From Ectocarpus siliculosus (Eukaryota; Sar; Phaeophyceae; Ectocarpales; Ectocarpaceae), in contig FN648366.1 in assembly GCA_000310025.1 (NCBI GenBank), forward strand, positions 1,974-65,973: a stretch of 64,000 nucleotides of DNA, given 5' to 3'. The position numbers and the translations under genes were made by a program. The notes under the pieces were generated by a model, which worked only from the letters and a program-made list of their open reading frames with translations, ran no database searches and had not been told where the DNA came from. Positions 4,974 through 60,002 of the stretch are shown here, piece by piece. The first letter of the stretch is position 1. Every line of letters begins with the position of its first letter.

Positions 4974-4983
4974 CATGTTATAT

Positions 4984-26700: not shown

Positions 26701-28799
26701 ACTTATGACGGTCGTGGCGGCGAGCGAACGGTAACGGCGGCAATGGCGGCGGCGGCAGCAGCGGTGGCGCCCTCGAGTCGACCGAGAACGGGGAGGGCAC
26801 GGTGATAGCGACGACCTCACCTTGTTACAGCCAAGTGGGAGAACATGTGAAACGTTTATGACTTTGTTCGATTTTGTGAGCAGGCATGGACGTTTTGGCT
26901 TCGCCATTTGGCTTCGCGTTTATGTTTTTGTTCTGTTTTTCCCTTGCTAGCGCACCGTGCACTTTGATGCAGAAAACACGTGTGTGCCACGGCATGTGCG
27001 CAATTTGTTTATTTTTTTTACTTGGTTTCGTGATAATAATTGTACGCTGTGACCAGATAAGCATTGCCACAACCTGTGGAATAGGAAGCAGCATGTGGGT
27101 ATTTTCGTTTCATTGGTTCTTCGTACAATTTCAGTCGCGTTCTACCTTGCAGCTGAATGCTTCATATTATTTCCGTATTCTTTGGAGGGAGTACGTTCAG
27201 TCGCGTTCTTTTAATACGCATGTTTTGCTGCTCTTGCATCGAAAATCATGGGGGGGGATGTCATGTATGACCATGATTCTAGAGGGCATGAGCAGCATTC
27301 GAATTGGTTCGTTTTCTGGTCTTGTCTATTTGTGTGTTACGTATACGGCAAAGCAGGGGGGACTGTTGGCATCGAGATATTAGCTCGGGGTGAATTTTGG
27401 GAGCTGACACCAGGGGGGCTGTTTGCGTGGATGCTTGATTATATTTTCTATCGTTGCTTGGACAACAGCGACGGTAGGTACCGATTAGCGGGTGCACGCT
27501 GTTTAGGATTTGGTCCTTGGACACTATATTGGAGGAAGGGTTTGACATGTTTTGACGATTTATGGCCGGGGCCATTGTGCTTTCCGAATTCTCGTTTTGA
27601 TTGGTCAAGAAGTTGAGTTTTTGTTTTGTTTGAGGATGGATTTGGTGCCAACTCTTTTGAAATTGTTTTTTCCAGAAATGTCCGTTTTCGTGCTGACGCT
27701 TTTCTGATGTAGTACAAATGATTGTTCGGTACTTTTCTGAGAATAATTTTTTTTGTGTCATCAACGGTTTGAGATTATTTCCAGAGACGAACGCGTTGGA
27801 TTCGTGAATAAACTGATGGAGACTCTTTGTGTTGAATGCGTAGCCAGTTTTGTTGAATAAGTTTTATTCTCAAGGGGTGTTTTTCTGTGTTGGCTGATTG
27901 CGCGTGAAGGGTTGCAAGATCGTACATCGTATCAAGTAGGGGGGCTGTTTGTGGTACTTGGATATGAGTCCGATCTGTGCATCCTCTGTGGGGGATACGC
28001 GTATGGGAAGTATGAGTGTGATGGGTACGTATGTACGCGGTTGGGGTCCAAGTGTGCCCCCCCCGCTTGAGCACACGGTGGTGTGCTCCCGGCACTAGCC
28101 TGAGGGGCTTGCGTGACGGATATATATAATACATGGTCTTTTTCATCTGCTGTTCCTGGGATAACATAGTCCCCAGTCTCAATGCCACAGACTGCTGAGG
28201 GCGGCAGTGCACGAACACTTGTCTTTGTTTCCCGGTCTTTAAAACACCTCGTGAGAAGGGCTTCTTTGGCCAGTTGTCTTTCTTTTGTGATGGAAAAAAG
28301 AAAAATATCACCGAAAAGAGGCGACAGAAAGAAATGGTCACTTGCCCCAAAGAGCTGGGAGCGCTACAATATCCAAGCTGAGCGAAAACCGGCTTACAGG
28401 TGTGTGTGTGTGAGGGAGAAGATGCTTGTGTTCATGGCCGAAGGTACTGCTGCTTCTCGAACATGTACCCCGCCGACGCCGTAGAGGGAGGACCCGTGTT
28501 CTAGAACCTAGGCATGGATCAAGTCCACGACATTCATTCGTGACTGAATTCGAAACGATGGTCGAGCACATTTATCCATCTCTAGAGAAAAGCACGTGCA
28601 AGCAGCAATTACCGAGTAACTAACCTTGGAGGTTGTTCATCGCCAGATTAAGCCTGACCACTCGGCCCCGGTCGTTGACTTCGACTCCATCCCATGTCGC
28701 TAGGGCAGCATCTGTGTCCCAGTTGCCTCTTCGCCTCCATCCAGCCCCGCCGGTCCAACGAAACAGGGCAATCAGTGCTTCGCGGTCCGTCGAAGCCAT
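16512..28799 (-). CDS. LRR-XKR fusion gene: N-cap, seven LRRs, XK-related membrane domain
   Basis: Inferred join on the minus strand: cap exon 28,799-28,625; LRR exons 22,124-22,053, 21,911-21,840, 21,676-21,605, 20,526-20,455, 20,279-20,208, 18,889-18,818, 18,080-18,009; last exon 17,752-16,512. Every internal exon is 72 nt and every junction is phase 1, so the frame holds throughout. The product would be roughly 640 residues: cytosolic-looking cap with no signal peptide, LRR fan, then an XKR domain with several membrane helices. By family knowledge XKR proteins are phospholipid scramblases; an LRR sensor joined to one suggests ligand-controlled membrane change, which is inference. The first intron would be 6.5 kb and holds a Copia element, so transcription across it is unproven. 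Confidence 0.55.
18009..18080 (-). CDS. Sense LRR exon (last before XKR), GC donor
   Basis: 72-nt phase-1 exon; starts after ctgcag and ends g|gcgag, so the donor is GC instead of GT. Variable strand LERLDLIGNKLDG. GC-AG introns are a known minor class, but here it could also be a damaging T-to-C change. Confidence 0.7.
18211..18281 (+). pseudogene. Antisense LRR cassette, frameshifted (71 nt)
   Basis: Follows cttgcag and ends before gtacc, but is 71 nt long: a base is missing near the LxL codons (LQLLHLPW...). Encodes SILPELGALSKLQLL before the break. It is on the strand opposite to the LRR-XKR gene. Confidence 0.7.
18430..18775 (+). repeat. ~340-bp direct repeat, copy 1
   Basis: Shares with 19,345-19,680 long runs such as gaattggttcgcctggcttt, ctcctgcgtgcctatg and the ending gaatcccgcygatg. 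A shorter relative is at 39,170-39,250. It lies inside an LRR intron and has no convincing coding role. Confidence 0.7.
18818..18889 (-). CDS. Sense LRR exon
   Basis: Intact 72-nt phase-1 exon with cag acceptor and gtggg donor. Framework PIPPELGKLAA, variable strand LESLDLTSNHLTG. Part of the LRR-XKR gene. Confidence 0.85.
19019..19110. repeat. Foldback repeat in LRR intron
   Basis: The words gtgatatcgcacccctgtgc and gcacgggggtgcgatatcag form inverted repeats around a short loop. It is related to the GCACCGGGGTGCGA family at 11,095-11,858 and is probably a small MITE. Confidence 0.65.
19345..19680 (+). repeat. ~340-bp direct repeat, copy 2
   Basis: Second copy of the repeat at 18,430-18,775, same orientation, with scattered differences. 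Confidence 0.7.
19764..19840 (+). pseudogene. Antisense LRR cassette, highly degenerate
   Basis: Follows cttatgcag and ends before gtgacg. Traces of an LRR remain (TPKELC near the start, an Asn/Asp-Ile-Ser end), but the length is 77 nt and the leucines are lost. Confidence 0.45.
20006..20077 (+). CDS. Antisense LRR cassette, intact
   Basis: 72 nt, phase 1, gctgcag acceptor and gtgag donor. Encodes PIPPELGILAALQELYVSSN then QLPG. It is the only undamaged cassette on the strand opposite the LRR-XKR gene; whether it is transcribed is unknown. Confidence 0.65.
20208..20279 (-). CDS. Sense LRR exon
   Basis: Intact 72-nt phase-1 exon, tgcag acceptor and gtgag donor; variable strand LRTLHLGTNELTG. 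Exon and upstream intron are a direct duplicate of the exon at 22,053-22,124, differing at R/K, G/E and T/I. Confidence 0.85.
20455..20526 (-). CDS. Sense LRR exon
   Basis: Intact 72-nt phase-1 exon, tgcag acceptor and gtgtg donor. Encodes PIPKELGNLSELKELWLSFN then QLAG. Confidence 0.85.
20951..21022 (+). pseudogene. Antisense LRR cassette with lost acceptor
   Basis: 72 nt with an open LRR frame (variable strand LQNLLLQDNQLSG) and a gtgag donor, but the preceding bases are cttgcac, so the acceptor AG has become AC. Confidence 0.7.
21185..21256 (+). pseudogene. Antisense LRR cassette with lost acceptor
   Basis: Open frame with variable strand RETLYLHRNKLSG and a gtgag donor, but the expected cag|gt is replaced (tgcc|at), so splicing into it should fail. 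Confidence 0.6.
21403..21474 (+). pseudogene. Antisense LRR cassette with in-frame stop
   Basis: 72 nt, tgcag acceptor, gtaag donor. Encodes EIPASLGQLSEL then TAA then TLSLWQNGLSG; the stop is one change from CAA (Gln). Confidence 0.75.
21605..21676 (-). CDS. Sense LRR exon
   Basis: Intact 72-nt phase-1 exon, tgcag acceptor and gtgag donor. Encodes FIPPRLGKLAA, variable strand LQWLSLWNIQITG. Confidence 0.85.
21840..21911 (-). CDS. Sense LRR exon
   Basis: Intact 72-nt phase-1 exon, aaacag acceptor and gtata donor. Encodes PIPEDLGNLTA, variable strand LTTMQLSCNNLEG. Confidence 0.85.
22053..22124 (-). CDS. Sense LRR exon (first after the cap exon)
   Basis: Intact 72-nt phase-1 exon, tgcag acceptor and gtgag donor; variable strand LKTLHLEINELTG. 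The next upstream sense exon recognised is the cap at 28,625. Confidence 0.8.
22536..23105 (+). repeat. Three tandem ~220-bp units with a Cys-containing reading frame
   Basis: Units start near 22,545, 22,758 and 22,977. Each contains (c)gatgacaaagrtatcygcc or its diverged form, then gagctgtgtg(t/a)atggtccgt and a ggttgayacag segment. Translation gives SPASCVYGPCCVAVDRD, SATSCVNGPSCMVVDTA and SATSCVYGPSCMYGG. They could be duplicated exons or a satellite. No family was recognised. Confidence 0.6.
23454..23458 (+). repeat. Target-site duplication CTTGT (left)
   Basis: Directly precedes the 5' LTR and is repeated as CTTGT at 28,218-28,222 directly after the 3' LTR. Five bases is the usual length for Copia-type integration. 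Confidence 0.8.
23459..23727 (+). repeat. 5' LTR of the Copia-type element
   Basis: Begins tgtttgtggtacttggatat and ends gcagtgcactaaca. It differs from the 3' LTR at roughly a dozen positions plus small indels, so the insertion is not very young. Confidence 0.85.
23771..24150 (+). pseudogene. Copia element gag-like N-terminal region
   Basis: Frame starting MRDRARELEEEAKKTAAEN is a charged coiled-coil-like helix followed by a His/Gln-rich stretch. No zinc knuckle. Its place just after the 5' LTR suggests gag, but similarity is not recognisable. Confidence 0.4.
24490..26805 (+). pseudogene. Copia-type integrase with stop, plus low-complexity extension
   Basis: From 24,510 the frame reads LFADLMGPLPPSACGNTYCL then VLVDDYSNYGIIK, the start of a Copia integrase core, then TAG near 24,624. 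Further on (24,727) are TSPDGGQTRNCRVERWIG (the SPxxxxxN...VER region with the catalytic Glu) and CPYEMLHGKR (the PYE motif). The expected second Asp box (DNGGEF type) is degenerate, and there is no RT downstream. From 25,270 to 26,800 the frame is a run of Ala/Ser/Thr with repeated GLDEIWSGAPTHPFDPGK units. The enzyme would join element DNA to the chromosome; this copy looks dead. Confidence 0.7.
25840..26400 (+). repeat. Four imperfect repeats encoding LDEIWSGAPTHPFDPGK
   Basis: The stretch ttggatgaaa(t/c)ctggagtgg followed by agccc(c/g)aacgcacycyttcg recurs near 25,866, 26,068, 26,208 and 26,331, spaced by Gly/Ser-rich codons. It is an internal expansion of the Copia element ORF. Confidence 0.7.
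26806..27945 (+). other. Non-coding 3' part of the Copia element
   Basis: No domain or credible reading frame on either strand; ends in the polypurine tract at 27,934-27,944. Includes the dispersed word cagtcgcgttct twice (27,131 and 27,199). Confidence 0.6.
27946..28217 (+). repeat. 3' LTR of the Copia-type element
   Basis: Begins tgtttgtggtacttggatat and ends gcagtgcacgaaca; followed by the CTTGT target duplication at 28,218. Confidence 0.85.
28341..28399 (+). pseudogene. Antisense LRR cassette remnant
   Basis: Reads CPKELGALQYPS then stop in the LRR frame and ends cttacag|gtgtg, like a truncated LRR exon with deleted centre. It lies between the Copia element and the cap exon. Confidence 0.45.
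28625..28799 (-). CDS. N-terminal cap exon of the LRR-XKR gene
   Basis: ATG at 28,799 gives MASTDREALIALFRWTGGAG, then a W-rich stretch (GNWDTDAALATWDGVEVND), then RGRVVRLNLAMNNLQG, ending at a gttagt donor in phase 1. This is the classic N-cap of plant-type LRR proteins (ALxALxxxTGG..W....W........W.GV....GRVvxLxL). No signal peptide precedes it, so an intracellular start is likely. The paralogous exon at 51,620-51,794 has exactly the same 175-nt length and the same start, which supports this ATG. The shared word ccctgagcaatgg spans the start in both. Confidence 0.85.
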
Positions 28800-31559
28800 T
28801 GCTCAGGGAACCTGCACGGGGTTGATTTTGAAGACACGGCTACTCCTGTAGTTTCAACGCCGGAAGCACCCCGTCAACCTGCGTACGATTTGGAGTCAAT
28901 TCACCTCCCAACCACACACACAACTGCTTGCGATTATAGGAGTCAAGTCCCCTCCCGATCACAATTGAATGCGGGAGAATCGAGAACCCCGGCAAACCCA
29001 GCTTTTATTTGCCGAACTTGCAAAATACGCCCCTGCTACAGCCGTCTGAAGGCTGTGCACTGCTGTGCACAGTGCGCAATAGACGGCGTTGTTGGGATTT
29101 CGATGAACTACTACGTGAGAGAAGCTCTCGTTCGGAATAGGAAGACCGTCCTACAGCATGCGCTTCCCGCGTTCCCGCGGACCGCGAACACACGAACACA
29201 CACACGTACGTGGATGTTACACAGGATATTTTGTTCTGGTTTGCACATTTGGAAACAGCTGGACATCGACAGCGTATTTTGTAAAGGCTCACACAGAGCG
29301 CTTGTCGGTATTTGGAAGGGAGAATGCGTGGAACAGCTGACCGTGACATTCTTTCCAGATGGAATGAGCAGGAAGCGTACCACGAATACCATGTGCACGG
29401 TGCAACTGCAGGAAACCACAACTCGGGATCTCACCGACGAAAGGAATAAAACGGGTCGCAGAAGGGGGCGAGTGTGGTGTATCCTGTATCCCGCTTGCAG
29501 TATCACGCTCAAAGCCACCTCTCAAAGACTCTGGACCCAAAGCTCCGGCAACTCCTCCCCTTGTTTTGTTGTCTGGGTTAAAAACTTGGTAGTTGGCTTT
29601 GGTAGTGAGTCCACGAGACACCACATGGCAAAACAACCCCTTTGCCTTTGGAACCAACTGCAACTGGCGGGCTGGCGGGTTGCAGATGCGTGCCATCTGC
29701 GAGCCCCCTCAGAGGGGCCCTTTCAGCCCTCTTCATCAAACACGCTTTCCCAGCCGGTCTTTCCCACCCTGTCCTCGCTGCAAGGTGCGCGCGTGTGCGT
29801 GTGACGACAGGTAGAAGGGTTGGGCTGGTTTGCTCGCACCGCGTGGCTGAGTTACAGTAGTTCACTTTAGGTGCTAATCCCCCCGCATCAATCGTGGGTC
29901 AATCCACCATGGTGCGACCCTGCGATGTGCGATGTGCGACCTCTGTAACCAGCCGTGCTTGCTGTGCGATCCCAGCAGCAGTGCATCCGAAGCCATGACA
30001 GACAGCTTCGGGAACCTGGGTGGTTTCTGTGGCATGCATGGTGGGCCGAATGGCTGTGGCTGGGGGACGTGTCGATATTAGCTCAACCATGCTCTTCCGT
30101 GGGTCATGATGAATACGAGCGACAGCAGGGCGATTGGACAGAGGTGAGTACGATGTTGTAGCCCGGTGCATAAGTCATCAAACCCATTTACATATCCCTT
30201 GTCCACTACTGTACTGCAGTCGTAGGCCCTCAATAAGGCGGGTATGCGCCAGGCCGATTCACCCGCCCTATTGTACGGGGCACCCGCCAAAATGTGTAGA
30301 ACAACTTGATTGTAGTACGTCTGTGCCAGCCAATTTTACCCGCCATATTTAACCCGCCTTATACTGCTGTAGGGGCCTACGGTTGCTGTACTGCTGTGTG
30401 TATATCAAGTGCTGGGGATGCTACACTGATCGCCGATGGATGATACCCCCGCTTGCACAGCTTTGCTGTATTATAGCTGCTGCCCGGGGAGGGGAGGAGC
30501 CTGGTACAACGTTGTCGCAACCCAACGAACTGCTGTCCAGGGCTGTAGACTAAAGTTCAAGTTCAAGTTCAAGCTTTAGATGGAATTTGCCACCCGCTTT
30601 GAGCTGCAATCCCAAGCAACTCGACTCGTAGAAAACGGACCGAGTATGTATGTCACGTTGCGTATGTACAGTTCAAGGGAGACGAATTGGAGTAAGGGTT
30701 CGACAAAATCTAAAAAATTTGCGATCTGCGTATGCAGGTTCCACCGTTCCACCCTAAAAGCGTATGCATATGTTAGACCACGTGTGGCTCCTGTTCGGAG
30801 AAACAACAAGAGACGTTGGAAAAACTCCACCAATCCGACCTTGAAGTGTTACGACTACATATGCATACAACAAACCGGCGGGTTGCGCTGGTTCACCACC
30901 ACGCGGCTCTTTCCGAGGGACTGAAACCGTTGGAAGACCCTGGTTTTGCCGCTGCTGTTGCGGTGGAACAAGCGCGATGCTTGTCCCGCTCGCCCCACCA
31001 ACCCGTCCCCTATTGTTGTTGTTCGTGTTTCGCGCTTCCACCTGCTTCGAACAGGCCTCTCCTTGTCTTCGACGAGCAATAGTAGTTGTGGTCTGCTATT
31101 GTCCACCGCGTCGTAGGGTGTTGCTGCTGCAGTGACGCCCACGTCCCACGCGTGTTTCTAGTCTTGTCAGTCAAAGTTTGGCCCCAAGAATTGGAGGATG
31201 ACAGATTGGAAAGGAAACAGAACATGTTCTTGCGTCTCTTGGTGGGTTAATTCGTCAGGTTGGCACTTTGGCGCGCAAGAAGCAAGGTACAGCGGCGCAC
31301 AAACGAGGACCTCCTTCAAATGATCCACAACAACACTAATTCGCGCTGCAACGAGAATTATACTCTGTTTTACCTTCAGTACAGTATTGCTTGTTCTTGA
31401 ATCAGGAACTCAATAATGGAGCACCTGAGAAACACATGAAATTCATGCCAAGCACATGCATGTCACAAGTGTAATGAGTTTTTTCTCGTGCGCAAGTACA
31501 GACAGCCGATGTCGCGCCTCTCCAATACCAATGGTGCGAGATACTGTCAACTCTACATG
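28800..31559. other. Intergenic region upstream of the left LRR gene
   Basis: It separates two divergent genes (LRR on the minus strand, SPX-like copy on the plus strand) and should hold both promoters. A long open frame on the plus strand (28,890-29,804) is not kept open in the other arm and has no domain, so I do not call it. A GTTCAA triplet repeat lies at 30,553. Confidence 0.5.
30211..30405. repeat. MITE with inverted ends around ATAAGGCGGGT
   Basis: Ends cgtaggccctcaataaggcg (30,221) and cgccttatactgctgtaggg (30,354) are inverted copies, with further inverted gtaggccc/ggggcctac outside. The inner part carries two extra copies of acccgcc. The right arm has the related element at 50,027-50,190, so it predates the duplication. 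Confidence 0.65.
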
Positions 31560-48887: not shown

Positions 48888-51619
48888 TGGCGCGGGGGGG
48901 GGCAGGGGGGGGGGACATCATTATGGCGGTCGGGGTTACTAACGTGGAGGTCACAGTATATCGCATCATTGCTGTTGGAGAGGCGCGACGCCGGCTGTCT
49001 GCACTTCCGCAGGAGAAAAGAATAAACGTTTGTGACATGCGTGTGCTTGGCATGAGCTCACGTGTTCTCAGGTGCTCTATTGAGGTCCTGTCAAGAACAA
49101 GCAACACTAATACTGCTGTACTGAAGCATGTCATTTTCGTTGTCACCGCCAACTTTGCTGCGGATCAATCGAAGGAGGTTATGTTTAGTGCGCCGTTGTG
49201 CCTTGCTTGTTGTACGCCACAGTGCCAACCTGACGAATTCACCCATGAAGGGACGCAAGAACATGTTATGTTTCCTTTCCATCCGCCATCCTCCCTTGGG
49301 ACCAACTTTGACTGACAAGACTAGATGCATACGTAGGAGCAGACGTGGGTGTCGCTACAGCAGCAACACGTTACGATGTGGCATAGGAAGCGTTTGAAGC
49401 GTTTCGGCGTCGACAATAAATAATAGAGCATGCCAACTGTCGTTGGTCAAATATAAGGAGACGCCGGTTCGAAGCAGGCGGAAGCGCGAAACGCGAACAT
49501 CTACATACAATAGGTGACAGGCTCGTGGGGCGGGCTCGTTTCACCGCAACAGCAGCTGCAAAAGCAACGTCCTCAAAAGGTTTTAGTCCCACGGAAAGAG
49601 CCGCCTGGTGGTGAACCCGCAAAACTCGCCCGTTTGTTCCGGCTATACCCATGTAACTCAACGTCAAGTGTGCGAACCCTTGCACATGGTTGGATTGGGG
49701 GAGTTTTCCAACGTCTCGTTGTTTTTCCGAACGGCAGCTACACGTAGGCTAACGTACATGTGCTGTAATGCATACCGTACGCTTTTGGGGGTGGGACCAT
49801 GCGGAGGACAGGAGTAGTTTCATTCTTTCGTCGAGCCCTTAGACTACCCTTTCCACTTCCACAAATCCTTGTCCCTCAAACTGTACGCAACGTGACATAT
49901 TCTTAAACTTGAAGCCCTGCACAACAGCTCGTTGGGTTACGACAACGTTGACCCAGGTTCCTCCTCTCTCCGGGCGGTAGCTACAGCAGTAGCGAGCGGG
50001 TGTATCATGCGGGTATCCATCTGCAGTACTTACTACTGTAGCATCCTCTACAATCAGGCGGGTAAAATTGGCTGGCACAGACGGAATAATCGAGTTGTTT
50101 TACACATTGAATGCGGCGGGTGCCGTGTTAGGGCGGGTGAATCGGTCTGGGCACATACCCGCCTTGGAGGGCCTACGACTGCTGCAGTGGGAAGCGGTAA
50201 ATCGACGGTGCGATAATCATGCACCTACAGTACTCTATCATGTACAGCAGTCAATACTCACCTCTGTCGCCCTGCTGTCGCTCATCATCATCGCCACAAT
50301 TGACACGTCCCCCAGGTAGTATACACTATCCGGCCCACCATGCATGCCACAGAGACCACCGAGGCTCCCGAAGCTCTCTGTCTATGGCTTCGGATGCACT
50401 GCTGTTGCGATCATGACAGCAAGCACGGCTACGTACAGGAAGTCGCACATCGCACATCGCAGGTGGTGGATCGACTCCGAGAGATGCGGGGGGATTCAGC
50501 ATCCAGCACCTATAAAGTGAACTCCTTAACCTCAACCACGCGGCATGAGGGACCAGCCCACCCTACTGCCTGCCGCCACAGGCACACGTGCACAGCGCAC
50601 ACCTTGAAGCGAGCACAGCAGGCGGGAAAGAGGCCTGGTGTGATAGGTGCATATTCTATGACACTGCTGCAAGTCAACAAGTCTCTGAGGGGGCTCGCAG
50701 ATGGCATCCTGCATCCCGCCAGTGGGTACGGCGGTGGGTGTCTCATTTCTCCGCACACCAGTAGCGGTCACCCACGTCTCAGCTCTGCCCCAAGCTCCTT
50801 CACATAACCCACACAACAAACAAAGGGGAGGACTTACCGGAGCTCTGGTCCACAGACTTTGAGTGGTGGCATCGAAAACGAGAGGAGCTTGGTACTGCAA
50901 GCGGGATACCACACTCGCCCGACCCCGCTTTTATTCCCTTCGTCGGTGAGTCCCGATTTTGTACTTCTGGGCCCGCTCTTGTTCTGTGCACACTTCGGGG
51001 CTTCCATGCGTTGCGTTCAAAATGTTACAAGTCCTTTTTTGGACGAGGCGTGGTCAGGTGTTCATTCCATCTGGAAAGAATGCCGCGGCCAGCTGTACTA
51101 CGTATTTCCCCTTCCAATTACCGACAAGCGCTCAATGCGTTAGCGTTCACAAACTCGCTGTCCGTGTCCCCGCTGCTGTCTATTCCAATCAAGTTTGCGA
51201 GCAGAACAAAACCAAACAAACAGCATAAATACATGCATCATCCACGTGCGTACGTATCCGCGGGAACGCGGGAAGCGCATTCTAAAAAGACGCATGGACG
51301 GTCTACCACGGGAAGCGCGTGCTACTACTCCGAACGAGAGCTTATTCTCACGCAGTTCATCGAAATCCCAGCAACGCCGTCTACCGCACCGTGCGCAGCA
51401 GCGCACAGCCCGTTGTAGCAGGCATCCTTTTGCACGTTCGGTACATCTCTGGTTGGCACCGGTTTCTCAATTCTCCCGCATCCCTCTTGATGTAGTCCTG
51501 GTAATCGGGAGATGACTTGTACTTGACTCCACATCGCAGGCAAGTTGGCGGGGGTGTTTTCGGGGTTGAAACTTCTGTAGCGGTGTCGCCAAATCAACTC
51601 CGTGCAGGTCCCCTGAGCA
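48888..51619. other. Intergenic region upstream of the right LRR gene
   Basis: Counterpart of 28,800-31,559 in the left arm, with the shared MITE. It lies between two divergent genes and should hold both promoters. No conserved gene. The arms are alignable here, so conserved short blocks would be promoter candidates. Confidence 0.5.
50027..50190. repeat. MITE, right-arm copy
   Basis: Contains caggcgggtaaaattggctg and cgggtgaatcggtctgg, then ccgccttggagggcctacga, inverted relative to 30,211-30,405. Confidence 0.6.
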
Positions 51620-51794
51620 ATGGCTTCCACGGACCGTGAAGCACTGAGTGCCGTGTTTCGTTTGACTGGCGGGGCTGGATGGAGGCGAAGACGCAACTGG
51701 GACACAGATGCTGCCCTAGAGACGTGGGAAGGAGTCAAAGTCAACAACCAGGGCCGAGTGGTCACGCTTGACCTGCCCGGTAACAACCTCCAAG
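51620..51794 (+). CDS. N-terminal cap exon of the LRR-ZU5 gene
   Basis: MASTDREALSAVFRLTGGAG, then RNWDTDAALETWEGVKVNN and QGRVVTLDLPGNNLQG, ending at a phase-1 gttagt donor. Same length and start as the cap at 28,625-28,799, from which it differs at scattered residues. Confidence 0.88.
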
Positions 51795-54700
51795 GTTAGT
51801 CCTTCGGCATTTGCTGCTTGTGCTTTCCTCTAGAGATGGACAAACGTGCTTGACCGTACTTACGAATTCGTGGAGTAACATGCTTGATCCAGCTTGCAGC
51901 TTCTAGAACGTGTCCTCCCTACGGCGTGGGCGTCCATATGGGAATCTATGGAAGTCGAAAGGGATTCATGATCAATTTTTCAAGGCTTCTAAACTTGAGA
52001 GGGGTAGTACCAGATATTTCTGGGCCCAAATATTGCCTCACCGCTGAGCTGGTTACTCCAAAGGGATTCATCCACGGAACCAGTTTGGTAAACATTGAAC
52101 AACCCCCAAAAAAGTTTCGAAAGTTGGTACCTGTCAGCTTGTTGTTGTTCAGGGCCAGCGCCCGCAGCTCGCTGAGAGCTCCCAGCTCCGGCGGGACGCG
52201 CCCTCCAAGCCAAACGGGGGGATAGCGGAGTTAGTAAGCGGGGGGAAACACAAATCCCCCGACTTGTAGAACACCTACTCACCCAAGCCGGGCGATTTAT
52301 TTTTTTATTGCCCGTTAAATTCGTGTGGCATGCATTGTGCGCCATGCCACAGGAACGATACCGGTGGAGCTAGGGAAGCTGACTGCGCTGGAGGCGCTTA
52401 TTCTGGGCAGAAACAACCTCTCAGGTGACATTACCCGAAAGTTCGTTTTGCATGTTACTAGATGTGTCGCCCCCCCGCATCGGCGGGATTCATCCTGGAC
52501 ACTGGAACAAAATTACGTACCAGTTAGCTCGTTCCCCCCAAGGCTGAGGTACTCCAGTACGGCGAGCCGTCCAAGCTCCACAGGGATGGGACCTGCAATC
52601 GAAGGAGAAAAAGCGACAACACAGTACCCATAATGTAGCGGGAAGAACCAAAGCTAAATGCCCCGGCTTCTAGAAACACCTACTCTAACGCAACTCGTAG
52701 CAAACGATGTCCTGCGAGTTCCGAAATTGCGGAATTTCGTACTCACCCACGCGTTGGCGTCCACTCACTGGTCTAGAAGCCGGGGCATTATTTTTGTTTT
52801 GACCCGCAACCATCACTCCGTTTTCCTTCTTTCACTTACAGGTCCCATTCCGCCGGCTCTGGGAAAGCTCGCAGCGCTTCAAACTCTGTACCTCGAAGGG
52901 AACCAGCTAAGCGGTGAGACACTGTTTAGAGTTGTTGAAAAAGTATCCCATGAATTTTCAACATGAATCCCGTGTATGCATGGGTGAGTAGGTGTTCTAG
53001 AAGTCGGGGGATTTTTGTGTTTTCCCCCGCTTACTATCTCCGCTATCCCCCCTTTGGCTTGCAGGGCGCATCCCGCCGGAGCTGGGAGCTCTCAGCGAGC
53101 TGCAGGTGCTGGCCCTCCACAACAACAAGCTGACAGGTACCAACTTTTGCAACTTTTTTGGGGTTGTTGAATGTTTACCAAACTTGTTCCGTGCATGAAT
53201 CCCGTGTATGCGTGGGCGGGACCGATGTTCTGGAAGTTCAGAAGTCGAAAGAACAAATGTTTTTTATCATCTACTCAACTCACCCTCTAGCTTGTTGTAG
53301 CTGAGGTCGAGGGTCTTGAGGGCGCCAAGATCTCCTAGCTGCCGCGGGATGTGGCCTGTAGATGAACGAGTCAAAGCAGGGCAGTTTAACGGGATAAAAG
53401 CAAAAGATACCTCCCGCTTTCTAGAAGATCCGTCCCGCCAACTAAAGAAAAATCCCCGCGCTTTCCGTACAAAAGTTTCGTGGACGCCAACGCATGGGTG
53501 AGTAGGTGTTCTAGAAGTCGGGGGATTTTTGTGTTTTCCCCCGCTTACTATCTCCGCTATCCCCCCTTTGGCTTGCAGGGCGCATCCCGCCGGAGCTGGG
53601 AGCTCTCAGCGAGCTGCAGGTGCTGGCCCTCATCAACAACAAGCTGACAGGTACCAACTTTTGCAACTTTTTTGGGGTTGTTGAATGTTTGCCAAACTTG
53701 TTCCGTGCATGAATCCCGTGTATGCGTCGGCGTCCATGCACGTTTCTCTAGAAGAAGTGAGAATTGGCCTTTGCTATTCGCCCCTTAAAATTGTTTTTGA
53801 ACGTTCGACTGACTGCAGGCCCCATCCCGCCGGAGTTGGGGAAGCTTGCAGCACTGGCGACGCTCAACCTTCAAAATAACCAACTAACTGGTGAGTATTT
53901 TGCACGGGTTTCACAATGAATCCCGCCGATGCGTACGCGTCCATGGATCTACGGAGATTGAACATAAAATAATGAGGATCAATCTAGTTTGCTTGTCTGC
54001 TTACAGGGCCTATCCCGCCGGAGCTGGGCAAGCTAACAGCGCTGGTGCAGCTCCGACTGTGGAACAACCAGCTATCCGGTGAGGCTGAAGTTGAGCATGA
54101 ATGCGTATGCGTGGGTGAGTACGAAATTTCGCAATTTCGGAACTCGCGGGACATCTTTTGCTACGCATTGGGGATTGATTTTTTTTCCCGCTAAGTTTGT
54201 TTTTGCTCATCTGCTTGCAGGCCGTATCCCACCGGAGCTCGGAAACCTTGGAGCACTGACGGCGCTCGACCTAGACGCCAACAAGCTAAGCGGTGAGAAG
54301 CAAAACATCGAAAATTGCTTTCCACTAATGATTTTGCACAAGAATATCATGAGTCCTGTGCACGCATCGGCGAGATTTAGTTGGCGTCCACTCACTGGTC
54401 TAGAAGCCGGGGCATTATTTTTGTTGCGACCCGCAACCATCTCTCCGTTTTTCTTCTTCCACTTACAGGTCCCATTCCGCCGGCGCTGGGAAAGCTCGCA
54501 GCGCTTCAAGATCTGTCCCTCTACAGAAACCAGCTAAGCGGTGAGACACTGTTTTAATGTGTTGAAAAAATTTCCCATGAATTTTCAAGATGAATCCCGT
54601 GTATGCATCGGCGGGATTCATTCATTTTTTCCGTGGGGTGAAAAGGATTCATGCCGATGCTTGCAGGAATGACTCACCGCTCAGCTGGTTGCTGTAAAGG

Positions 54701-57700
54701 TAGAGCTGCTTCAGTGCTGAAAGGTGCCCAAGCTCCGATGGGATGGGGCCTGCAAGCGGACGGACGGAAGGGAGTAGCTCAGCGGGACAAAATAAAACAA
54801 CCCCCCGCTTTCTAGAACATTGGCCCCGTACAAAAGTTTCGTGGACACCTACGCGTACGCGTCCACGAAACTTCAGAACTAGCGGGATAACAATTATGAC
54901 GCCAAGTGCGTGGGTGAGCACGGAACTCGCAGGACATCGTTTGCTACGAGTTGCGTTATTGAGTAGGTGTTTCTAGAAGCCGGGGCATTTAGCTTTGATT
55001 CTTCCGCTACATTATGGGTACTGTGTTCTCGTTTTTTCTCCTTCGATTGCAGGTCCCATCCCTGTGGAGCTTGGACGGCTCGCCGTACTGGAGTACCTCA
55101 GCCTTGGGGGGAACGAGCTAACTGGTAAGTAATTTTGTTCCAGTGTCCAAGATGAATCCCGCCGATGCAGTACGCGTCCACGAAACTTCAGAACTAGCGG
55201 GATAACTTTTATGCCGCCAATACGCGGCATTCATGCTCAATTTCATGACTCACCGGACAGCTGGTTGTTCGACAGGTCGAGAATGACGAGCGCTGTGAGC
55301 TTGCCCAGCTCCGACGAGATAGGCCCTGCAAACAGAGAAGCAAAACAAATACTCCATTATTTGGGGGGGGACTACCAAAAAGTTTATGTTCGATCTCCGT
55401 AGATCTATGGACGCGGACGCATACGCGGCATTCATGCTCAACTTCAGCCTCACCGGATAGCTGGTTGTTCCACAGTCGGAGCTGCACCAGCGCTGTTAGC
55501 TTGCCCAGCTCCGGCGGGATAGGCCCTGTAAGCAGACAAGCAAACTATATACATTGATCCTCAATATTTTATGTTCGATCTCCGTAGATCCATGGACGCG
55601 TACGTAATTGGCGTCACAAAAGTTACCCCGCTAGTTCTGAAGTTTCGTGGACGCGTACGCGTGCGCGGGACTCATGCGTTCAGAAGTCGAAAGAAAAAAT
55701 ATAATTTTTTACTACTCAACTCACCATCTAGCTTGTTGTAGCCGAGGTTGAGGGTCTCGAGGGCGCCAAGATCTCCTAGCTGCCGCGGGATGTGGCCTGT
55801 AGACAAACGAGTCAAAGCCGGGCAATTCAGCGGGGTAAAGTAAAATATATCACCCGCTTTCTAGAACATCGGTCCCGCCGCGTTGGCGTCCACGAAACTT
55901 CAGAAATAGCGGGTACGAAATTTCACAATTTCGGAACTCGCGGGACATCTTTTCCTACGCATTTTTTTCTACAACTGTCCTTGCTGATATTTTCTCCCTG
56001 CTGCATTCTTGTGCAGGACCCATCCCCAAGGAGCTGGGAGCACTTAGTAGGCTGGAGACGCTTTGGCTCCACCACAACAACCTCACAGGTGAGAGAATCG
56101 AAGAAGAGTTGAAAGTTTTCTTGTTCACGAAATAAGAATCCTGCCGACGCATACGCGGGATTCATTCATTTTCAGAAATCGAAAGAAAACAAAACTCTTT
56201 TTGGTCTTTTTAACTCACCATCTAACTTGTTCATGGAGAGGTTGAGGACCTTCAGGGCGCCAAGCTGTCCGAGCTGAGGCGGGATATGGCCTGTAGATGA
56301 ACGAGTCAACGCAGGGCAGTTTGGCAAGGTACAGAAAAGTTTATCCCGCGAGTTTTGAAATTTCGTACCCGCCCACTACATCGGCGAGATTCATCCATGG
56401 ATTAATGCTAGAAAAAAACTAAACCGACCATCAAAATAAAATACGTACCTGTGAGGTGGTTGTTGCTGAGCCACAGCCTCTGCAGCTGTCGGAGATCTCT
56501 TAGCTCTGGCGGGATGTTGCCTGCCAGAGGAACGGAAAATAAGAAGTTGGCGGGAGAAAACAAACTTAATCCCCCGGCGTCTAGAAAAACGGTCCTGCCA
56601 ACGCAGTGGGCGGTACAAGCTCTACGGAAATCGATGATATTAAAAAAAATCCCGTTGTAACTGCCTCCGCTGTATCTTTTGTGCAGGCCCCGACAAGTTT
56701 TCACGTAGTTCGAAGTAGAATAATTTGGTACCTGTAAGGTTGTTGGCGTTGAGGTAGAGAACCTTCAGCTCCCTGAGAGCTCCCAGCTCCGGCGGGATGT
56801 GGCCTGCGATGGGCAGAGGGAACACGGAGTTTGGGTCACGGGACGAAACAAATATATTCCCCCGGCTTCTAGAAAACACCTCCTCACCTACTGCCCAGCT
56901 CCGGCGGGATGTGGCCTGCGACCGCCAGAGAGAATACGGAGTTCGGGTTGCGAGACAAAATAAACATATTCCCCCGGCTTCTAGAACACACTACTCACCT
57001 ACTACAACGGCAGGATTCACCCTGCAGGTAGCTCGTTTTGACCAAGTTTGGGATCCTTTCATGCTCGAGCTCCGACGGGATGGGACCTGCGCACGGAAGA
57101 ACTCAGACAATATGGGAAATAGGCAGAAGTGGGTGTGTCCCTACCCAATTCATTTATCGCAACATGAAACATAAACTCGTGGCATGTGCCTCCCCCTCTC
57201 ACATTGTTGTTGACGAGACAGCAAGTCCAAAACGACGTCATGTGACTGTGATGCGTGAGATGATTCCACCATGCGTGACTCCATATGATGCGAATCATCT
57301 GTACGCGCAGGGGCCGTGCCAGCATGCCTCGTCAAGCTCGGCGAACTTTTCTCTTTGGGCCTCGGCGACAACCAGCTCAGTGGTGAGGGTTTCGGAGATT
57401 TGTCTCTTGCAAGTGGTCGTACCATCTACCATCTAGATTACGGGGCATTAAATGGGCTAAATTAGCTGCAACGGCAAAAAAAAATCAATGCATTCTTTTC
57501 AAAAACATTATTTTGACGTACAGTCCAAAAAGATTTAATTCTTAGTGAAAATCTTTCAACAGTTTCTCAGTTATGTGCCCCCAACAATTTGGTGTTGAAC
57601 GTAGCCACATCCGCAACTCTTTTTGCTTGCCCCATGTGCGTGAGCCACAGGTCCGGTGCCCTCACTTCAGCAGCTCAAAGATCTTCGCGACGCTCTGGTC

Positions 57701-59493
57701 TCCCCAGGCTACAGACACAGAGGTGTGTGGTGTCAATTTCTCGAGTACTCGGAAAATTATGCTAGTCTTGCCTGGCGCCGTGAGAACGTCGCGGACGTGG
57801 AAAATGGTAGACAGTCGAGAAAACCATCCCTGAAATCTGCGCGACCTTGCTCCGTCACAGCAGAGGACGCGCGAATCGGCATGGCGAAGCTGACTCTCGA
57901 TGGGGAGATGAGGGGGACACCGATGAAGGCGTTCCAAAGGGGGAAGATCGACACGGACAAAATCTTCTCGGATGAGGATGTCGAAGGCGGAACGAGCACC
58001 ACCATAAGCGGCACGTCTTTTCCTGGCAAAGGTATTTGAAACGTTCTGCGAGTTTGTGGTCGCTTGGTTCTTGGGGTGGCGATGTGTACGTTCAACACTT
58101 CCGTCTTGCCCTCGAACCGAGGAAGGTTCACGCACCCTACAGCAGTGATTGTGACACCCTGCCTTCGGGAACTAAATGGGTGGCAGCGGGCGTAGCAGCT
58201 GGCGTGTACAATTGATGTATTGCTCCAAGACTTGGGGGAGCTTTCCAACGCAATGTGCACCCCGGCCGATCACCGCAATAGCAGGAGAGGCTGAAAAATT
58301 CAGCATGGTCAAGCCACGCAACGCAAGACCCGTAGCAACGAAGACGAGAGACGTTCGGGATACTACCGTCGACGGAGGCATGGCAGAAATCTCAGGTATG
58401 TCGTGCGCGATACGCGACAGGCGCCATCGCCGAGTTTCATAGGAAGTGTATGTGGACGTGGCCTATTTCTGCTCCGAGCTGACATTCCCTTGTGCTATGG
58501 ACAGGCTTCGACGGGTACGTCATGGCATGGTCTTTTGGACAACATCCGGCGGTGCTCCGTAGCAATGGTTTTGAGTTTGAACTCGAGGTACCCCGCCTGG
58601 GAAGAAACGTACCGGCCCTGATCGGCCTGCGATCCAGCTCAGCTGAAGTAGTAGACGGAGAAAAATGTCTGCTGCATCCCGTAGTGACGTGTCTCGCACG
58701 CAGTGGCGAGGTGTTCGACCCCCCTCTCTGTCTGCGGTTTCCCGTGGGAGATGTAAACTCTATGGAATCGGGTTCTGATTGCGGCAGTGATGACGCCGAG
58801 GTGACGTACCGTGCTTACCTTGAGTCCACTTTTTCGACGTTGACTCGAAAGCACGCTAGTTCAGAGTGGGTTCCTGTGGATGGGACTATCGAGCAAACGG
58901 ACGAGGGCATTTTCGTTTTGGAGGTGCAAGTGTCTCACTTCTGCGATTTCGCCCTCAAGCAAGCCATCAAGGTGGATTCCGGTGGTGTGGAGCTCGTCAA
59001 ACTACCACAGCTAAAGCACAAAAGTAGGCGGTCGCACTACCACTTTGTGAATCTAGGCACGGAGAACCTCGTGGTCCACTGCTGGGGTGTTACTCGGAAG
59101 CGGGGTTTCCTTGAGAGTTTCAGGCTGAAGCTAGGATTTGGACTCAATGGTGGGGACGCTGAGGTGGAAGCAACGCGAACGCTCGTAGATGCGCCTGGCA
59201 CGGGGGTATATAAGGTGGACGTACCTGGTGGGCCCGTCGACGACCCTAGGAATGAGGCTTGCCTGGTGGTCAATGGCTTCGAATCGCTGACAGTGGCGTA
59301 TACAACGCAGAAAACTGTTCGTGCTGGTACTCTGTTCGGTAGCACTCACGAGCTGGTTCAAGTATGGGGTACGAGGCACATGCAGCACAAACACGCAATG
59401 ATATTCGGCATCTTGCCGGAATCGGCTTTGGTGCCTAATTTGAAAGTAGAAGATGGTGTCAACGTGGGTGAACTCGTGAGATCAAAAGTTTGA
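51620..59493 (+). CDS. LRR-ZU5 gene: N-cap, eleven LRRs, ZU5-like C-terminus
   Basis: Inferred join on the plus strand: cap 51,620-51,794; LRR exons 52,353, 52,842, 53,065, 53,579, 53,819, 54,007, 54,221, 54,469, 55,053, 56,017 and 57,311 (72 nt each); then 57,651-58,031, about 58,282-58,395, and 58,505-59,493. All junctions are phase 1, so any subset of LRR exons keeps the frame. No signal peptide and no membrane helix, so a cytosolic receptor is likely. In animals LRR plus ZU5 occurs in PIDD, a death-signalling scaffold; that is an architectural parallel, not proof of function. Ten intact antisense cassettes lie in its introns. How many LRR exons enter one mRNA is unknown. Confidence 0.6.
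52131..52202 (-). CDS. Antisense LRR cassette, intact
   Basis: 72 nt, phase 1; acceptor ttggag, donor gtacc; variable strand LRALALNNNKLTG. Inverted relative of the sense cassettes at 53,065 and 53,579, with matching introns. Confidence 0.8.
52353..52424 (+). CDS. Sense LRR exon
   Basis: 72 nt, phase 1; ccacag acceptor, gtgac donor. TIPVELGKLTA, variable strand LEALILGRNNLSG. Confidence 0.85.
52521..52592 (-). CDS. Antisense LRR cassette, identical to sense exon 55,053
   Basis: 72 nt, phase 1; tgcag acceptor, gtacg donor. PIPVELGRLAV, variable strand LEYLSLGGNELTG. All 72 bases equal those of 55,053-55,124 on the other strand, and about 100 bp on both sides also match. Confidence 0.85.
52842..52913 (+). 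CDS. Sense LRR exon
   Basis: 72 nt, phase 1; cttacag acceptor, gtgag donor. PIPPALGKLAA, variable strand LQTLYLEGNQLSG. Duplicate of 54,469-54,540 with changes at the exposed codons. Confidence 0.88.
53065..53136 (+). CDS. Sense LRR exon
   Basis: 72 nt, phase 1; cttgcag acceptor, gtacc donor. RIPPELGALSE, variable strand LQVLALHNNKLTG. Confidence 0.88.
53284..53355 (-). CDS. Antisense LRR cassette, intact
   Basis: 72 nt, phase 1; ctacag acceptor, gtgag donor. HIPRQLGDLGA, variable strand LKTLDLSYNKLEG. Near copy of 55,725-55,796. Confidence 0.82.
53579..53650 (+). CDS. Sense LRR exon, tandem duplicate of 53,065
   Basis: 72 nt, phase 1; cttgcag acceptor, gtacc donor; variable strand LQVLALINNKLTG. 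About 230 bp of flanking intron is almost identical to the copy at 53,065; within the exon only the codon CAC/ATC differs. Confidence 0.88.
53819..53890 (+). CDS. Sense LRR exon
   Basis: 72 nt, phase 1; ctgcag acceptor, gtgag donor. PIPPELGKLAA, variable strand LATLNLQNNQLTG. Confidence 0.88.
54007..54078 (+). CDS. Sense LRR exon, identical to antisense cassette 55,454
   Basis: 72 nt, phase 1; ttacag acceptor, gtgag donor. PIPPELGKLTA, variable strand LVQLRLWNNQLSG. Confidence 0.88.
54221..54292 (+). CDS. Sense LRR exon
   Basis: 72 nt, phase 1; cttgcag acceptor, gtgag donor. RIPPELGNLGA, variable strand LTALDLDANKLSG. Confidence 0.88.
54469..54540 (+). CDS. Sense LRR exon
   Basis: 72 nt, phase 1; cttacag acceptor, gtgag donor. 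PIPPALGKLAA, variable strand LQDLSLYRNQLSG. Duplicate of 52,842-52,913. Confidence 0.88.
54678..54749 (-). CDS. Antisense LRR cassette, intact
   Basis: 72 nt, phase 1; cttgcag acceptor, gtgag donor. PIPSELGHLSA, variable strand LKQLYLYSNQLSG. Confidence 0.82.
54832..54871. repeat. Intron palindrome AAGTTTCGTGGAC ... GTCCACGAAACTT
   Basis: Perfect 13-bp inverted arms around acctacgcgtacgc. Half-copies (gcgtccacgaaacttcagaa or its complement) recur near 53,470, 55,165, 55,640 and 55,885 in other LRR introns, in both orientations. Confidence 0.8.
55053..55124 (+). CDS. Sense LRR exon, identical to antisense cassette 52,521
   Basis: 72 nt, phase 1; ttgcag acceptor, gtaag donor. PIPVELGRLAV, variable strand LEYLSLGGNELTG. 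Confidence 0.88.
55254..55325 (-). CDS. Antisense LRR cassette, intact
   Basis: 72 nt, phase 1; tttgcag acceptor, gtgag donor. PISSELGKLTA, variable strand LVILDLSNNQLSG. Confidence 0.82.
55454..55525 (-). CDS. Antisense LRR cassette, identical to sense exon 54,007
   Basis: 72 nt, phase 1; cttacag acceptor, gtgag donor; variable strand LVQLRLWNNQLSG. Flanking introns match those of 54,007-54,078 with only a few differences. Confidence 0.85.
55725..55796 (-). CDS. Antisense LRR cassette, intact
   Basis: 72 nt, phase 1; ctacag acceptor, gtgag donor. HIPRQLGDLGA, variable strand LETLNLGYNKLDG. Confidence 0.82.
56017..56088 (+). CDS. Sense LRR exon
   Basis: 72 nt, phase 1; gtgcag acceptor, gtgag donor. 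PIPKELGALSR, variable strand LETLWLHHNNLTG. Confidence 0.86.
56219..56290 (-). CDS. Antisense LRR cassette, intact
   Basis: 72 nt, phase 1; ctacag acceptor, gtgag donor. HIPPQLGQLGA, variable strand LKVLNLSMNKLDG. Confidence 0.82.
56449..56520 (-). CDS. Antisense LRR cassette, intact
   Basis: 72 nt, phase 1; tggcag acceptor, gtacg donor. NIPPELRDLRQ, variable strand LQRLWLSNNHLTG. Confidence 0.82.
56687..56697 (+). pseudogene. Sense LRR cassette cut off at a rearrangement junction
   Basis: A good acceptor (tatcttttgtgcag) is followed by only about 6-10 bases of LRR start (gccccga), then the sequence becomes the reverse-strand intron of the 56,732 cassette. It marks a breakpoint. Confidence 0.55.
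56732..56803 (-). CDS. Antisense LRR cassette, intact
   Basis: 72 nt, phase 1; atcgcag-type acceptor (tgcgatg on plus), gtacc donor. HIPPELGALRE, variable strand LKVLYLNANNLTG. Confidence 0.82.
56890..56915 (-). pseudogene. Antisense LRR cassette truncated to about 26 nt
   Basis: Acceptor and HIPPELG are present, then the sequence jumps into intron (ctactcacc type). It arose by duplication of 56,785-56,885 with one end inside the exon. Confidence 0.7.
57022..57086 (-). pseudogene. Antisense LRR cassette, 65 nt and degenerate
   Basis: Begins PIPSELEHE after tgcgcag and ends before a gtgaat donor, but is 65 nt long, so the phase is lost; leucines of the centre are gone. Confidence 0.55.
57311..57382 (+). 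CDS. Sense LRR exon (last typical one)
   Basis: 72 nt, phase 1; gcgcag acceptor, gtgag donor. AVPACLVKLGE, variable strand LFSLGLGDNQLSG. More diverged framework than the others, as expected for a terminal repeat. Confidence 0.75.
57651..58031 (+). CDS. Linker exon: half LRR start plus charged segment
   Basis: After gccacag the exon opens GPVPSLQQLKDLRDALVSPG, an LRR-type start, and stays open to a phase-1 donor at 58,031 (381 nt). An alternative donor at 57,723 would make a 72-nt exon. The rest (EDARIGMAKLTLDGEMRGTP, FSDEDVEGGTSTTISGTSF) is polar and unrecognised; it may be the start of the ZU5-like fold. Like the XKR exon of the other gene, the effector exon begins as an LRR. Confidence 0.6.
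58282..58395 (+). CDS. Possible short exon before the ZU5 exon
   Basis: Open frame AGEAEKFSMVKPRNARPVAT then KTRDVRDTTVDGGMAEIS with a phase-1 gtatgt donor at 58,396. The acceptor (caatag) is weak, so the start is uncertain; the donor phase fits the next exon. Confidence 0.4.
58505..59493 (+). CDS. C-terminal exon: ZU5-like domain and unknown tail
   Basis: Starts after atggacag in phase 1 and ends TGA at 59,491. Residues about 25-85 read GFEFELEVPRLGRNVPALIG, then EKCLLHPVVTCLARSGEVF and DPPLCLRFPVGD, matching the ZU5 pattern (hydrophobic strand with Pro, then LxPVV...G..F..Pl.L.fP). At about 150 comes FVLEVQVSHFCDFAL, like the closing HF strand. The last ~170 residues (HYHFVNLGTENLVVHCWG, KLGFGLNGGDAEVEATRTL, ACLVVNGFESLTVAYTT) are beta-rich and unrecognised. 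ZU5 domains are protein-interaction modules in UNC5, ankyrin and PIDD. No death domain, GTPase or NB-ARC was found. Confidence 0.65.
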
Positions 59494-60002
59494 TGAACGA
59501 GGGCTTGTTTTGTCGGCAATGATTCGTTTGTGTCATGGTGCGAGGGGCATTGTGTGTTGTGACTCTTAGGATAAGAAGTTCTTTGCCGTACGCCTTCCGG
59601 AGACGAATTTATTTTGTAAATAGTTGGAATGTTCTGATAATTATGTGCTTTGCAGTAGCCACGCTCCCGAAGAACTTGATTCTTTGATTCGACGAAAAAT
59701 GGGGAGGCGGAGAGATTGTGTCCGTTGCGGGTGTCTGCTGTGTTACCAAGACTACGGCAACTGAACAGGGTGTTGTCATCGTAGCTCATGGATCCTCGCA
59801 CTTCAGGTTCTTTGGGTTGCGCACGTCCTCCCTCCCAGTCGAAACCAGATCCTCTCGCAAAACGTTTTGTCCGAGGCTTTTTGACCCGGAGTGACTTCAT
59901 AGGCGTCAGTACGTTCTTTTTTTTTTTTTTTTTCGTCCCATCTATTTTGGCGACAGTGCCTCCGATCAAGACACGAGCAACACAACGCGTATAAATATTT
60001 AC
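59494..60002. other. Downstream region of the LRR-ZU5 gene
   Basis: No gene. A run of 20 T lies near 59,918-59,935. This stretch has no counterpart in the left arm, where the XKR exon's downstream region takes its place. Confidence 0.5.

Follow-up and report, generated by a model that had tools for sequence, protein, structure and literature searches.

Palindromic border sites of single-repeat LRR exon cassettes on both strands of Ectocarpus receptor genes

Introduction

How does a receptor gene come to carry single leucine-rich repeat (LRR) exons on both of its strands? This question is raised by a stretch of 64,000 nucleotides (nt) from the brown alga Ectocarpus siliculosus (GenBank assembly GCA_000310025.1, contig FN648366.1, positions 1,974 to 65,973 of the forward strand), here called the window, in which a receptor gene on the plus strand contains an array of 21 intact LRR exons in both orientations. 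Near-identical cassettes, each with one such exon, occur in different places and orientations, and their borders lie at the centres of palindromic sites. It appears, with a probability of roughly 0.77, that these exon cassettes are cut by an enzyme, joined by their ends and reshuffled within and between receptor loci.

Shuffling of LRR exons is already known in brown algae. In LRR-ROCO genes, 72-bp exons that each encode one 23-residue LRR are shuffled, diversifying selection acts on concave positions, and loci consisting mostly of LRRs have been suggested as a reservoir (Teng et al. 2024, PMC11378527). That article, whose relevant sections describe exon shuffling and alternative splicing, states that no site-specific recombinase or somatic recombinant locus had been reported, and its main text contains 0 mentions of antisense, opposite strand, inverted, orientation, transpos or palindrom; somatic recombination of brown algal receptor exons was proposed by Zambounis et al. 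(2012), as cited there. A literature search returned no description of such a receptor-exon site system, although the 2012 article lay outside its scope and a prior mention there is possible. The exons of the window array are of the same kind as those of other brown algal single-LRR exon receptors, since 21/21 have 72 nt, one 23-residue LRR and a constant phase. What is new here is the palindromic border site of the cassettes, together with borders defined at the level of single bases.

An array with exons on both strands

An LRR consensus scan of both strands of the whole window, read together with the translation, shows an array composed of a fixed first exon, 21 intact single-LRR exons and a C-terminal region that reaches to about 59493. 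As the first-pass annotation of this DNA had stated, all 21 exons are 72 nt long and open, with AG before them, GT after them and phase 1-1; 20 of them match the LRR consensus at 9/9 positions and the remaining one, at 55254, at 8/9. Because each exon comprises 24 codons in phase 1-1 and has its own splice signals, a cassette is frame-neutral in either orientation, again in agreement with the annotation, and every product of rearrangement should splice in frame. The order of exons along the array is ASASSASSSSSASAAASAAAaS, where S and A denote sense and antisense exons and a is a broken antisense copy. The annotation had counted eleven sense and ten antisense exons alternating between 52131 and 57086; the totals and the interleaving of both strands in one gene are borne out, but the eleventh sense exon (57311-57382) lies outside that interval, which leaves 10 + 10 inside it, and the alternation is not strict. 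Two inverted pairs are found within the array, namely 52477-52641 with 55004-55168 (165 nt, 98%) and 53982-54104 with 55428-55550 (123 nt, 99%). Elsewhere in the window, scan matches with AG and GT/GC borders occur only in a second two-stranded array at 18.0-22.1 kb, and the clustering thus exceeds chance.

Changes of cassette orientation, which had also been proposed, are evident from the closest exon pairs, 35 of 75 of which combine a sense with an antisense exon, and from the 11 of 92 intact antisense exons that are identical to a sense exon somewhere. Inversion in place alone, however, does not account for the array: 8 of its 10 antisense exons differ by at most 4 nt from some sense exon, mostly on other contigs, which points to movement and duplication beyond in-place inversion.

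A palindromic site between cassettes

Between most of the cassettes stands a shared recombination-like site that the annotation had missed, an imperfect palindrome with the consensus TCCCGCCnAYGCRTnGGCGGGA (AGnATnnnTCCCGCCnACGCGTnGGCGGGAnnnATnCT); the median length of a cassette is 241 nt. All data come from one assembly (189.5 Mb, 492 contigs), and the survey is biased because the first 20 stretches were picked by motif; with both window arrays added, 22 stretches were compared. A position matrix, built on the same 22 stretches on which it was scored, detects 203 sites there and 5 once the sequences are reversed. One site is present in 177 and two are present in 3 of the exon gaps of 60-330 nt (180/265 with a site), and 2 of the 203 sites lie inside exons.

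Exact matches to TGAATCCCGNNNAYGCR, the motif of the 3' cassette ends, number 65 in the genome, as against 0 when the pattern is read backwards. Sixty of them lie in the window arrays or in examined stretches with LRR exons (a broken one in locus L019); the other five stand alone, lack a convincing LRR exon, have one site-like match at most (score 8.2) and apparently arose by chance. With up to 3 mismatches, TCCCGCCNAYGCRTNGGCGGGA is found at 117 places in the genome versus 22 for the reversed pattern, and every one of the 48 listed places with at most 2 mismatches lies in a stretch that has one or more LRR exons, in L019 a broken one. No autonomous element sharing these ends was recognised at the five isolated places, and a viral source of the site was discarded, there being 0 exact matches in viral contigs.

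The same half-site occurs at both ends of a cassette, and two abutting half-sites make up the palindrome. In an example junction at 53195-53226, ATGAATCCCGTGTATG abuts CGTGGGCGGGACCGAT, with the centre between 53210 and 53211, whereas at 54590-54621 two 3' cassette ends face each other (ATGAATCCCGTGTATG and CATCGGCGGGATTCAT, centre after 54605). The fourteen site centres of the array lie after bases 52477, 52751, 52978, 53210, 53492, 53724, 53931, 54109, 54364, 54605, 54853, 55419, 55659 and 56149. Among the 181 of 203 junctions that enter the tally of end types (the other 22 lack a neighbour), 50 are 3'-3', 88 are 3'-5' and 43 are 5'-5', which fits the 1:2:1 ratio of random end joining (p 0.71).

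Cassette borders and the central two bases

Where do shared cassettes end? Segments with at least 88% identity over 90-600 nt have 46.3% of their 1988 ends within 15 nt of a site, compared with a mean of 7.9% and a maximum of 13.1% in 200 shifted controls. A set of 140 cassettes, each with a site on either side and one exon, contains 46 near-identical pairs, 40 of them between loci. Four pairs of 225-274 nt have the full identity score, among them L006:4179-4429 and L007:5592-5842, from two separate contigs, and, as an inverted pair within one locus, L002:5515-5786 and L002:7450-7721. In the border profile, from which sides with shared neighbours were removed so that 44 ends per side were left (the pairs are not all independent), identity is 0.91-1.00 over the first 14 bases inside the border. 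At outside base 1 it is 0.98 and 1.00 on the two sides (background 0.67 and 0.92), at base 2 it is 0.50 and 0.55 (0.55 and 0.56), and at base 4 it is 0.20 on both sides (0.26 on both), beyond which identities scatter above and below background. Since identity is down to about background at the second base beyond it, the palindrome centre marks the border of a shared cassette to an accuracy of one base.

Covariation between the two half-sites of a junction is confined to position 1, where mutual information is 0.426 against a maximum of 0.169 in 200 within-locus shuffles, and at positions 2-14 it stays below the respective shuffle maxima. The central bases of the 203 junctions are GC in 165, TA in 24, mixed C/A in 4 (45 expected) and other in 10, and the 24 TA junctions belong to 24 different arm pairs. 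When sites are called blind to the centre, i.e., with the central six columns ignored, threshold 9 gives 229 sites (GC 159, TA 23, mixed 8 with 46 expected, other 39), and the loosest threshold gives 405 sites with 35 mixed versus 73 expected (reversed control, 169); at position 2, by contrast, 84 are mixed versus 80 expected at threshold 9. In the account of PMC4111918 that concerns these enzymes, serine integrases leave 2-nt overhangs and need complementary central dinucleotides, and tyrosine recombinases have cores of 6-8 bp. An identical core of 6-8 bp was not found here, covariation being confined to the central 2 bp, and by analogy the two-base pattern resembles serine integrases rather than tyrosine recombinases.

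Arrays at other loci

The annotation had treated the array as the peculiarity of a single receptor gene, but it belongs to a class of arrays at many loci, and a one-off oddity is ruled out by the two-stranded pattern in 17 arrays with an assigned gene strand. At a loose threshold both strands hold exons in 21/22 stretches, and the larger arrays have many intact exons on both. The gene strand was assigned from the N-terminal exon, a homologue of which is present in 16 of 28 stretches compared (the window stretch counted in), or, for five loci (W1, L004, L005, L008 and L012), from matches to flanking gene parts, which for L012 included a GTPase-like reading by eye. The 17 arrays contain 151 sense and 130 antisense exons, and equality is not rejected (p 0.23), with four nearly one-stranded loci (L021, L024, L025 and L026) set aside before the count and seven strand-unassigned loci (61 exon matches) outside it. 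Neighbouring exons in the 22 stretches have the orientations ++ in 66, -- in 64, +- in 66 and -+ in 69 cases.

Two loci picked by gene homology and not by motif, L039 and L041, have 6 + 6 intact sense exons, no intact antisense exon and a single weak site apiece. One exon is present in L040, a third of which is N, and L036-L038 contain no intact LRR exon, so that the held-out loci include no two-stranded array. A division into two classes of arrays is not backed, as the correlation of site density with antisense fraction (given below) is not significant over 23 loci. A search for allelic copies of the flanks of the window gene and of L012 gave no near-identical copy (best 69% and 84%; 91% over 340 nt).

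An internal contrast is offered by the NB-ARC genes, for which three NB-ARC/TPR stretches were read out of 27 NB-ARC matches in the genome. These three genes contain tandem repeats of up to 812 nt with TPR-like exons, and the self-matches of their stretches are direct in 120 cases and inverted in none, while the site is matched there twice, weakly. The idea that TPR arrays use the same device does not hold in the three stretches read, where only direct duplications occur.

Sense and antisense exons compared

In the 17 arrays, 140/151 sense exons are intact versus 91/130 antisense exons (Fisher p 6.8e-7), and in the four set-aside loci the figures are 28/28 and 1/7. The ratio of nonsynonymous to synonymous change (pN/pS) was taken from closest non-overlapping exon pairs of 12 loci, which are few and not all independent; at the four variable positions it is 2.47 for 25 sense pairs, 1.99 for 35 mixed pairs and 1.0 for 15 antisense pairs. 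The corresponding values are 0.18, 0.28 and 0.34 in the scaffold, whose conservation is inflated because exon detection needs LRR positions, and 1.19, 0.75 and 0.78 over all positions. Antisense exons thus look less constrained than sense exons, although not plainly neutral. Because they are broken more often (39/130 versus 11/151), they look untranslated but recent, and the simplest reading would be that antisense cassettes are untranslated, decaying and renewed by exchange. The maintained silent store of antisense repeats that the annotation had envisaged does not follow from such figures.

A proposed mechanism and its alternatives

It is reasonable to suppose that the LRR exon behaves as a discrete DNA cassette consisting of a 5' arm, AG, the 72-nt exon, GT and a 3' arm. 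A staggered two-base cut at the palindrome centre would be made by a sequence-specific activity, for which a serine-recombinase-like enzyme, or an endonuclease together with end joining, is the simplest candidate; the free ends would then be rejoined regardless of side, and cassettes could in this way be inverted, deleted, duplicated or exchanged between receptor loci. In splicing, a sense cassette would add one repeat and an antisense cassette would be skipped, the role of the whole presumably being receptor diversification. The sequence is best read as the product of enzymatic cuts with a stagger of two bases. A further proposal, i.e., programmed shuffling within the lifetime of the alga, by which site-specific inversion or exchange would bring an antisense store into the reading direction and create an adaptive-like repertoire, is rather doubtful, though a somatic, programmed role is possible.

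Several observations weigh against cutting and end joining by an enzyme, among them certain positions outside the border with identities above background and a strand ratio that changes once the set-aside loci are counted. On the 3' side, outside bases 5, 6 and 8 have identities of 0.77, 0.91 and 0.82 (background 0.58, 0.74 and 0.65), and when the four set-aside loci are added, 179 sense exons are counted versus 137 antisense (p 0.02); three of these four nearly one-stranded loci carry four or five sites. No site was detected in 85/265 exon gaps. Site density and antisense fraction have a Spearman coefficient of 0.37 over 23 loci (p 0.085); L008 and W1, the loci with the most sites per exon, have a single intact antisense exon apiece, and sites are present in L024 and L025 without any intact antisense exon. 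The overall pN/pS of antisense pairs is 0.78 and not 1. Moreover, 12/95 similar cassette pairs, which trace to few cassettes, differ in their central bases at one end (11 GC/TA, 1 GC/AC), and strict dinucleotide identity between partners is therefore not kept. As for the enzyme, profile searches of the genome, in which intron-split genes can be missed, gave one partial match to Pfam Resolvase (on contig C16, beside a TnpB-like open reading frame), no match to PF07508 and four weak partial matches to PF00589 (tyrosine integrase), and nothing ties the partial matches to the palindromic sites. The Resolvase match (L027, C16:5.12 Mb) has as its neighbour an open reading frame with a Cas12f1-like TNB domain, and we take this pair to resemble an IS607-type relic.

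The same data bear on other explanations. If the cassettes were non-autonomous terminal-inverted-repeat transposons, each with an exon, that had inserted into a two-base target within existing junctions, the half-site common to both ends would be their terminal inverted repeat, and both the presence of cassette families at many loci and the TA on both sides of four cassettes would be accounted for. An equal target duplication, however, is not found, as 19 of the 126 cassettes whose two ends are each either GC or TA have one of each. Differences between similar pairs are one-ended (11 and 1 of 95) and never concern both ends (0/95), although independent cases are few, which argues against two-sided target duplication and for single-end joining, after which the centre might be taken from one partner or restored later. 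With all 48 listed sites in stretches that contain LRR exons, and no free copy or autonomous element among the places searched, transposition is unlikely. Ordinary homologous or microhomology-driven exchange between conserved intron elements would need no dedicated cutter: most gaps contain a site that could serve as a short stretch of homology, near-palindromes are able to pair both ways round, and both the outside positions above background and the strand ratio of the set-aside loci would agree with it. Exchange of this kind predicts crossovers along the palindrome, whereas identity is about background from base 2 beyond the centre and covariation ends after position 1 (position 2 by itself is weak evidence in this respect, since CpG decay at a later time could account for its G/A variation); likewise, only direct duplications are seen in the three TPR stretches, whose repeats reach 812 nt. 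Recombination by homology alone is thus quite improbable.

That 91/130 antisense exons are intact and have splice signals might suggest a second, overlapping gene on the other strand. However, a tblastn search with the N-terminal and C-terminal exons in 49001-60000 of the window gave matches on the plus strand only, antisense exons are the more often broken (p 6.8e-7), and their pN/pS at the variable positions is that of 1.0 given above rather than the 2.47 of sense pairs; a second gene is therefore very improbable. An assembly or library artefact, to which repetitive arrays are prone in the form of misassembled repeats, deserves equally little credence. The cores ACGCGT, ACTAGT and ATGCAT are known restriction sites, but 70/203 cores are ACGCAT or ATGCGT, for which we know of no common restriction enzyme. 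In addition, the arms are conserved well past the core, arrays on numerous contigs, for the most part megabase-sized ones, have such junctions, and no inverted repeats occur in the TPR stretches.

Relation to known systems

Enzyme-cut cassettes of this kind would have several partial counterparts. In bacterial shufflons and in the Hin/hix system, coding cassettes found in either orientation are flanked by short inverted-repeat sites; here such sites stand between cassettes in 180/265 gaps, and the crossover with a matched central dinucleotide that characterises serine invertases is found here as well, apart from the similar pairs that differ at one end. In contrast to shufflons and Hin, the present cassettes are eukaryotic exons with introns, are exchanged between loci and have mostly self-complementary centres, and no recombinase was found. 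Integron gene cassettes also undergo modular, site-bounded exchange, which depends on an integrase and on promoter-proximal insertion; here, however, exons and not genes are concerned, both orientations are common, and neither an integrase nor a promoter-proximal insertion point was seen. Inverted terminal sequences are common to the cassettes and to terminal-inverted-repeat transposons, including miniature inverted-repeat elements (MITEs), but the two-sided dinucleotide duplication was not found here and the sites occur only at LRR exons. To our knowledge, cassettes that consist of one coding exon and end at a common recombination-like site have not been described in any eukaryote so far. The variable lymphocyte receptors of lampreys resemble the algal arrays in that a large stock of LRR cassettes serves a receptor built of LRR modules. 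Lamprey donors are, according to the relevant part of PMC3308329, copied as templates by short similarity and are not themselves rearranged, whereas whole near-identical cassettes bordered by one conserved palindromic site are found here (mosaics were not searched for separately). As to size, the bacterial site hixL is given as 26 bp (PMC4817059).

A defined site with base-level borders makes the proposed somatic recombination of receptor exons testable and would give a eukaryote a physical means of reshuffling its receptors. Such a site would also provide exon shuffling as such with a mechanism, against which the TPR arrays of this genome can be set as an internal contrast. If programmed shuffling were true, it would amount to an adaptive-like repertoire in a multicellular alga, based on palindromic sites and a two-base overlap.

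Further features of the window and of related arrays

The first coding exon of the receptor (51620-51794, plus strand), recognised from its translation, encodes an N-terminal cap and ends in phase 1, its end being set by eye. It is followed by an antisense LRR exon (52131-52202, RVPPELGALSELRALALNNNKLT) and a sense one (52353-52424, TIPVELGKLTALEALILGRNNLS), both from the consensus scan, and then by a run of site-to-site cassettes, delimited by site centres. These are 52478-52751 (minus strand, exon 52521-52592), which has an identity score of 1.0 with L006:2662-2936 on C11, where it is also antisense; 52752-52978 (plus, exon 52842-52913); 52979-53210 (plus, exon 53065-53136), which scores 0.99 with L003:6131-6363 on C4, where it is also sense; 53211-53492 (minus, exon 53284-53355); 53493-53724 (plus, exon 53579-53650), a near copy of 52979-53210; 53725-53931 (plus, exon 53819-53890); 53932-54109 (plus, exon 54007-54078); 54110-54364 (plus, exon 54221-54292); 54365-54605 (plus, exon 54469-54540); and 54606-54853 (minus, exon 54678-54749). 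Downstream, the sense exon 55053-55124, known from self-match and scan, lies inside the 165-nt inverted copy of the segment around 52521, and the antisense exon with 8/9 consensus positions occupies 55254-55325. The cassette 55420-55659 (minus, site centres) contains the exon 55454-55525, which is identical to the sense exon 54007-54078. The scan further gives antisense exons at 55725-55796, 56219-56290, 56449-56520 and 56732-56803 and a sense exon at 56017-56088. The last sense exon, at 57311-57382, is unlike the shuffled ones, the nearest exon among 23 loci compared differing at 22/72 nt. Exon-less repeated modules of type GCGTCCACGAAACTTCAGAACTAGCGGGATAAC, like mini-cassettes, lie between cassettes at 54855-54905, 55170-55220 and 55618-55659.

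The C-terminal region (57652-59493, plus strand; exon limits inferred by eye) includes an open exon, 58483-59490, without a Pfam match. A ROC-COR domain was not found after the LRRs in this exon (the smaller exons in 57383-58482 were not scanned), and COR-A has one match in the genome, at C17. The C-terminal exon recurs at four more places in the genome with 52-57% identity, one of which adjoins the two-stranded array L008; its predicted structure, with a mean pLDDT of 34, was not used.

The second two-stranded array of the window, at 16515-22124 on the minus strand, has 7/7 sense and 1/5 antisense exons intact, and its gene ends in an XK-related domain (PF09815, E 1.3e-15), which is also present in the LRR gene of L026. 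We take this domain to be scramblase-like, and receptors that combine it with LRRs may form a separate class. At 28471-30073, on the minus strand, the 5' gene region, N-terminal exon included, occurs once more with 69% identity; the gene of the 18-22 kb array probably begins here.

Among the other arrays, long runs of N (gaps or withheld sequence) after or inside the LRR arrays hide downstream parts of L001 (from about 4593), L006 (about 5029) and L020 (3078), of which that of L020 was seen directly and the other two are deduced from reading frames that stay open on either strand. In L011, at 4012-5031, the cassette families follow one another in the palindromic order -10 -9 66 9 10, which amounts to an inverted duplication centred on a single cassette. 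Finally, L001 (3324-3931) and L006 (3315-3911) have families 1 and 3 in common, between which family 2 is antisense in the former and family 22 is sense in the latter, a natural replacement of a single cassette.

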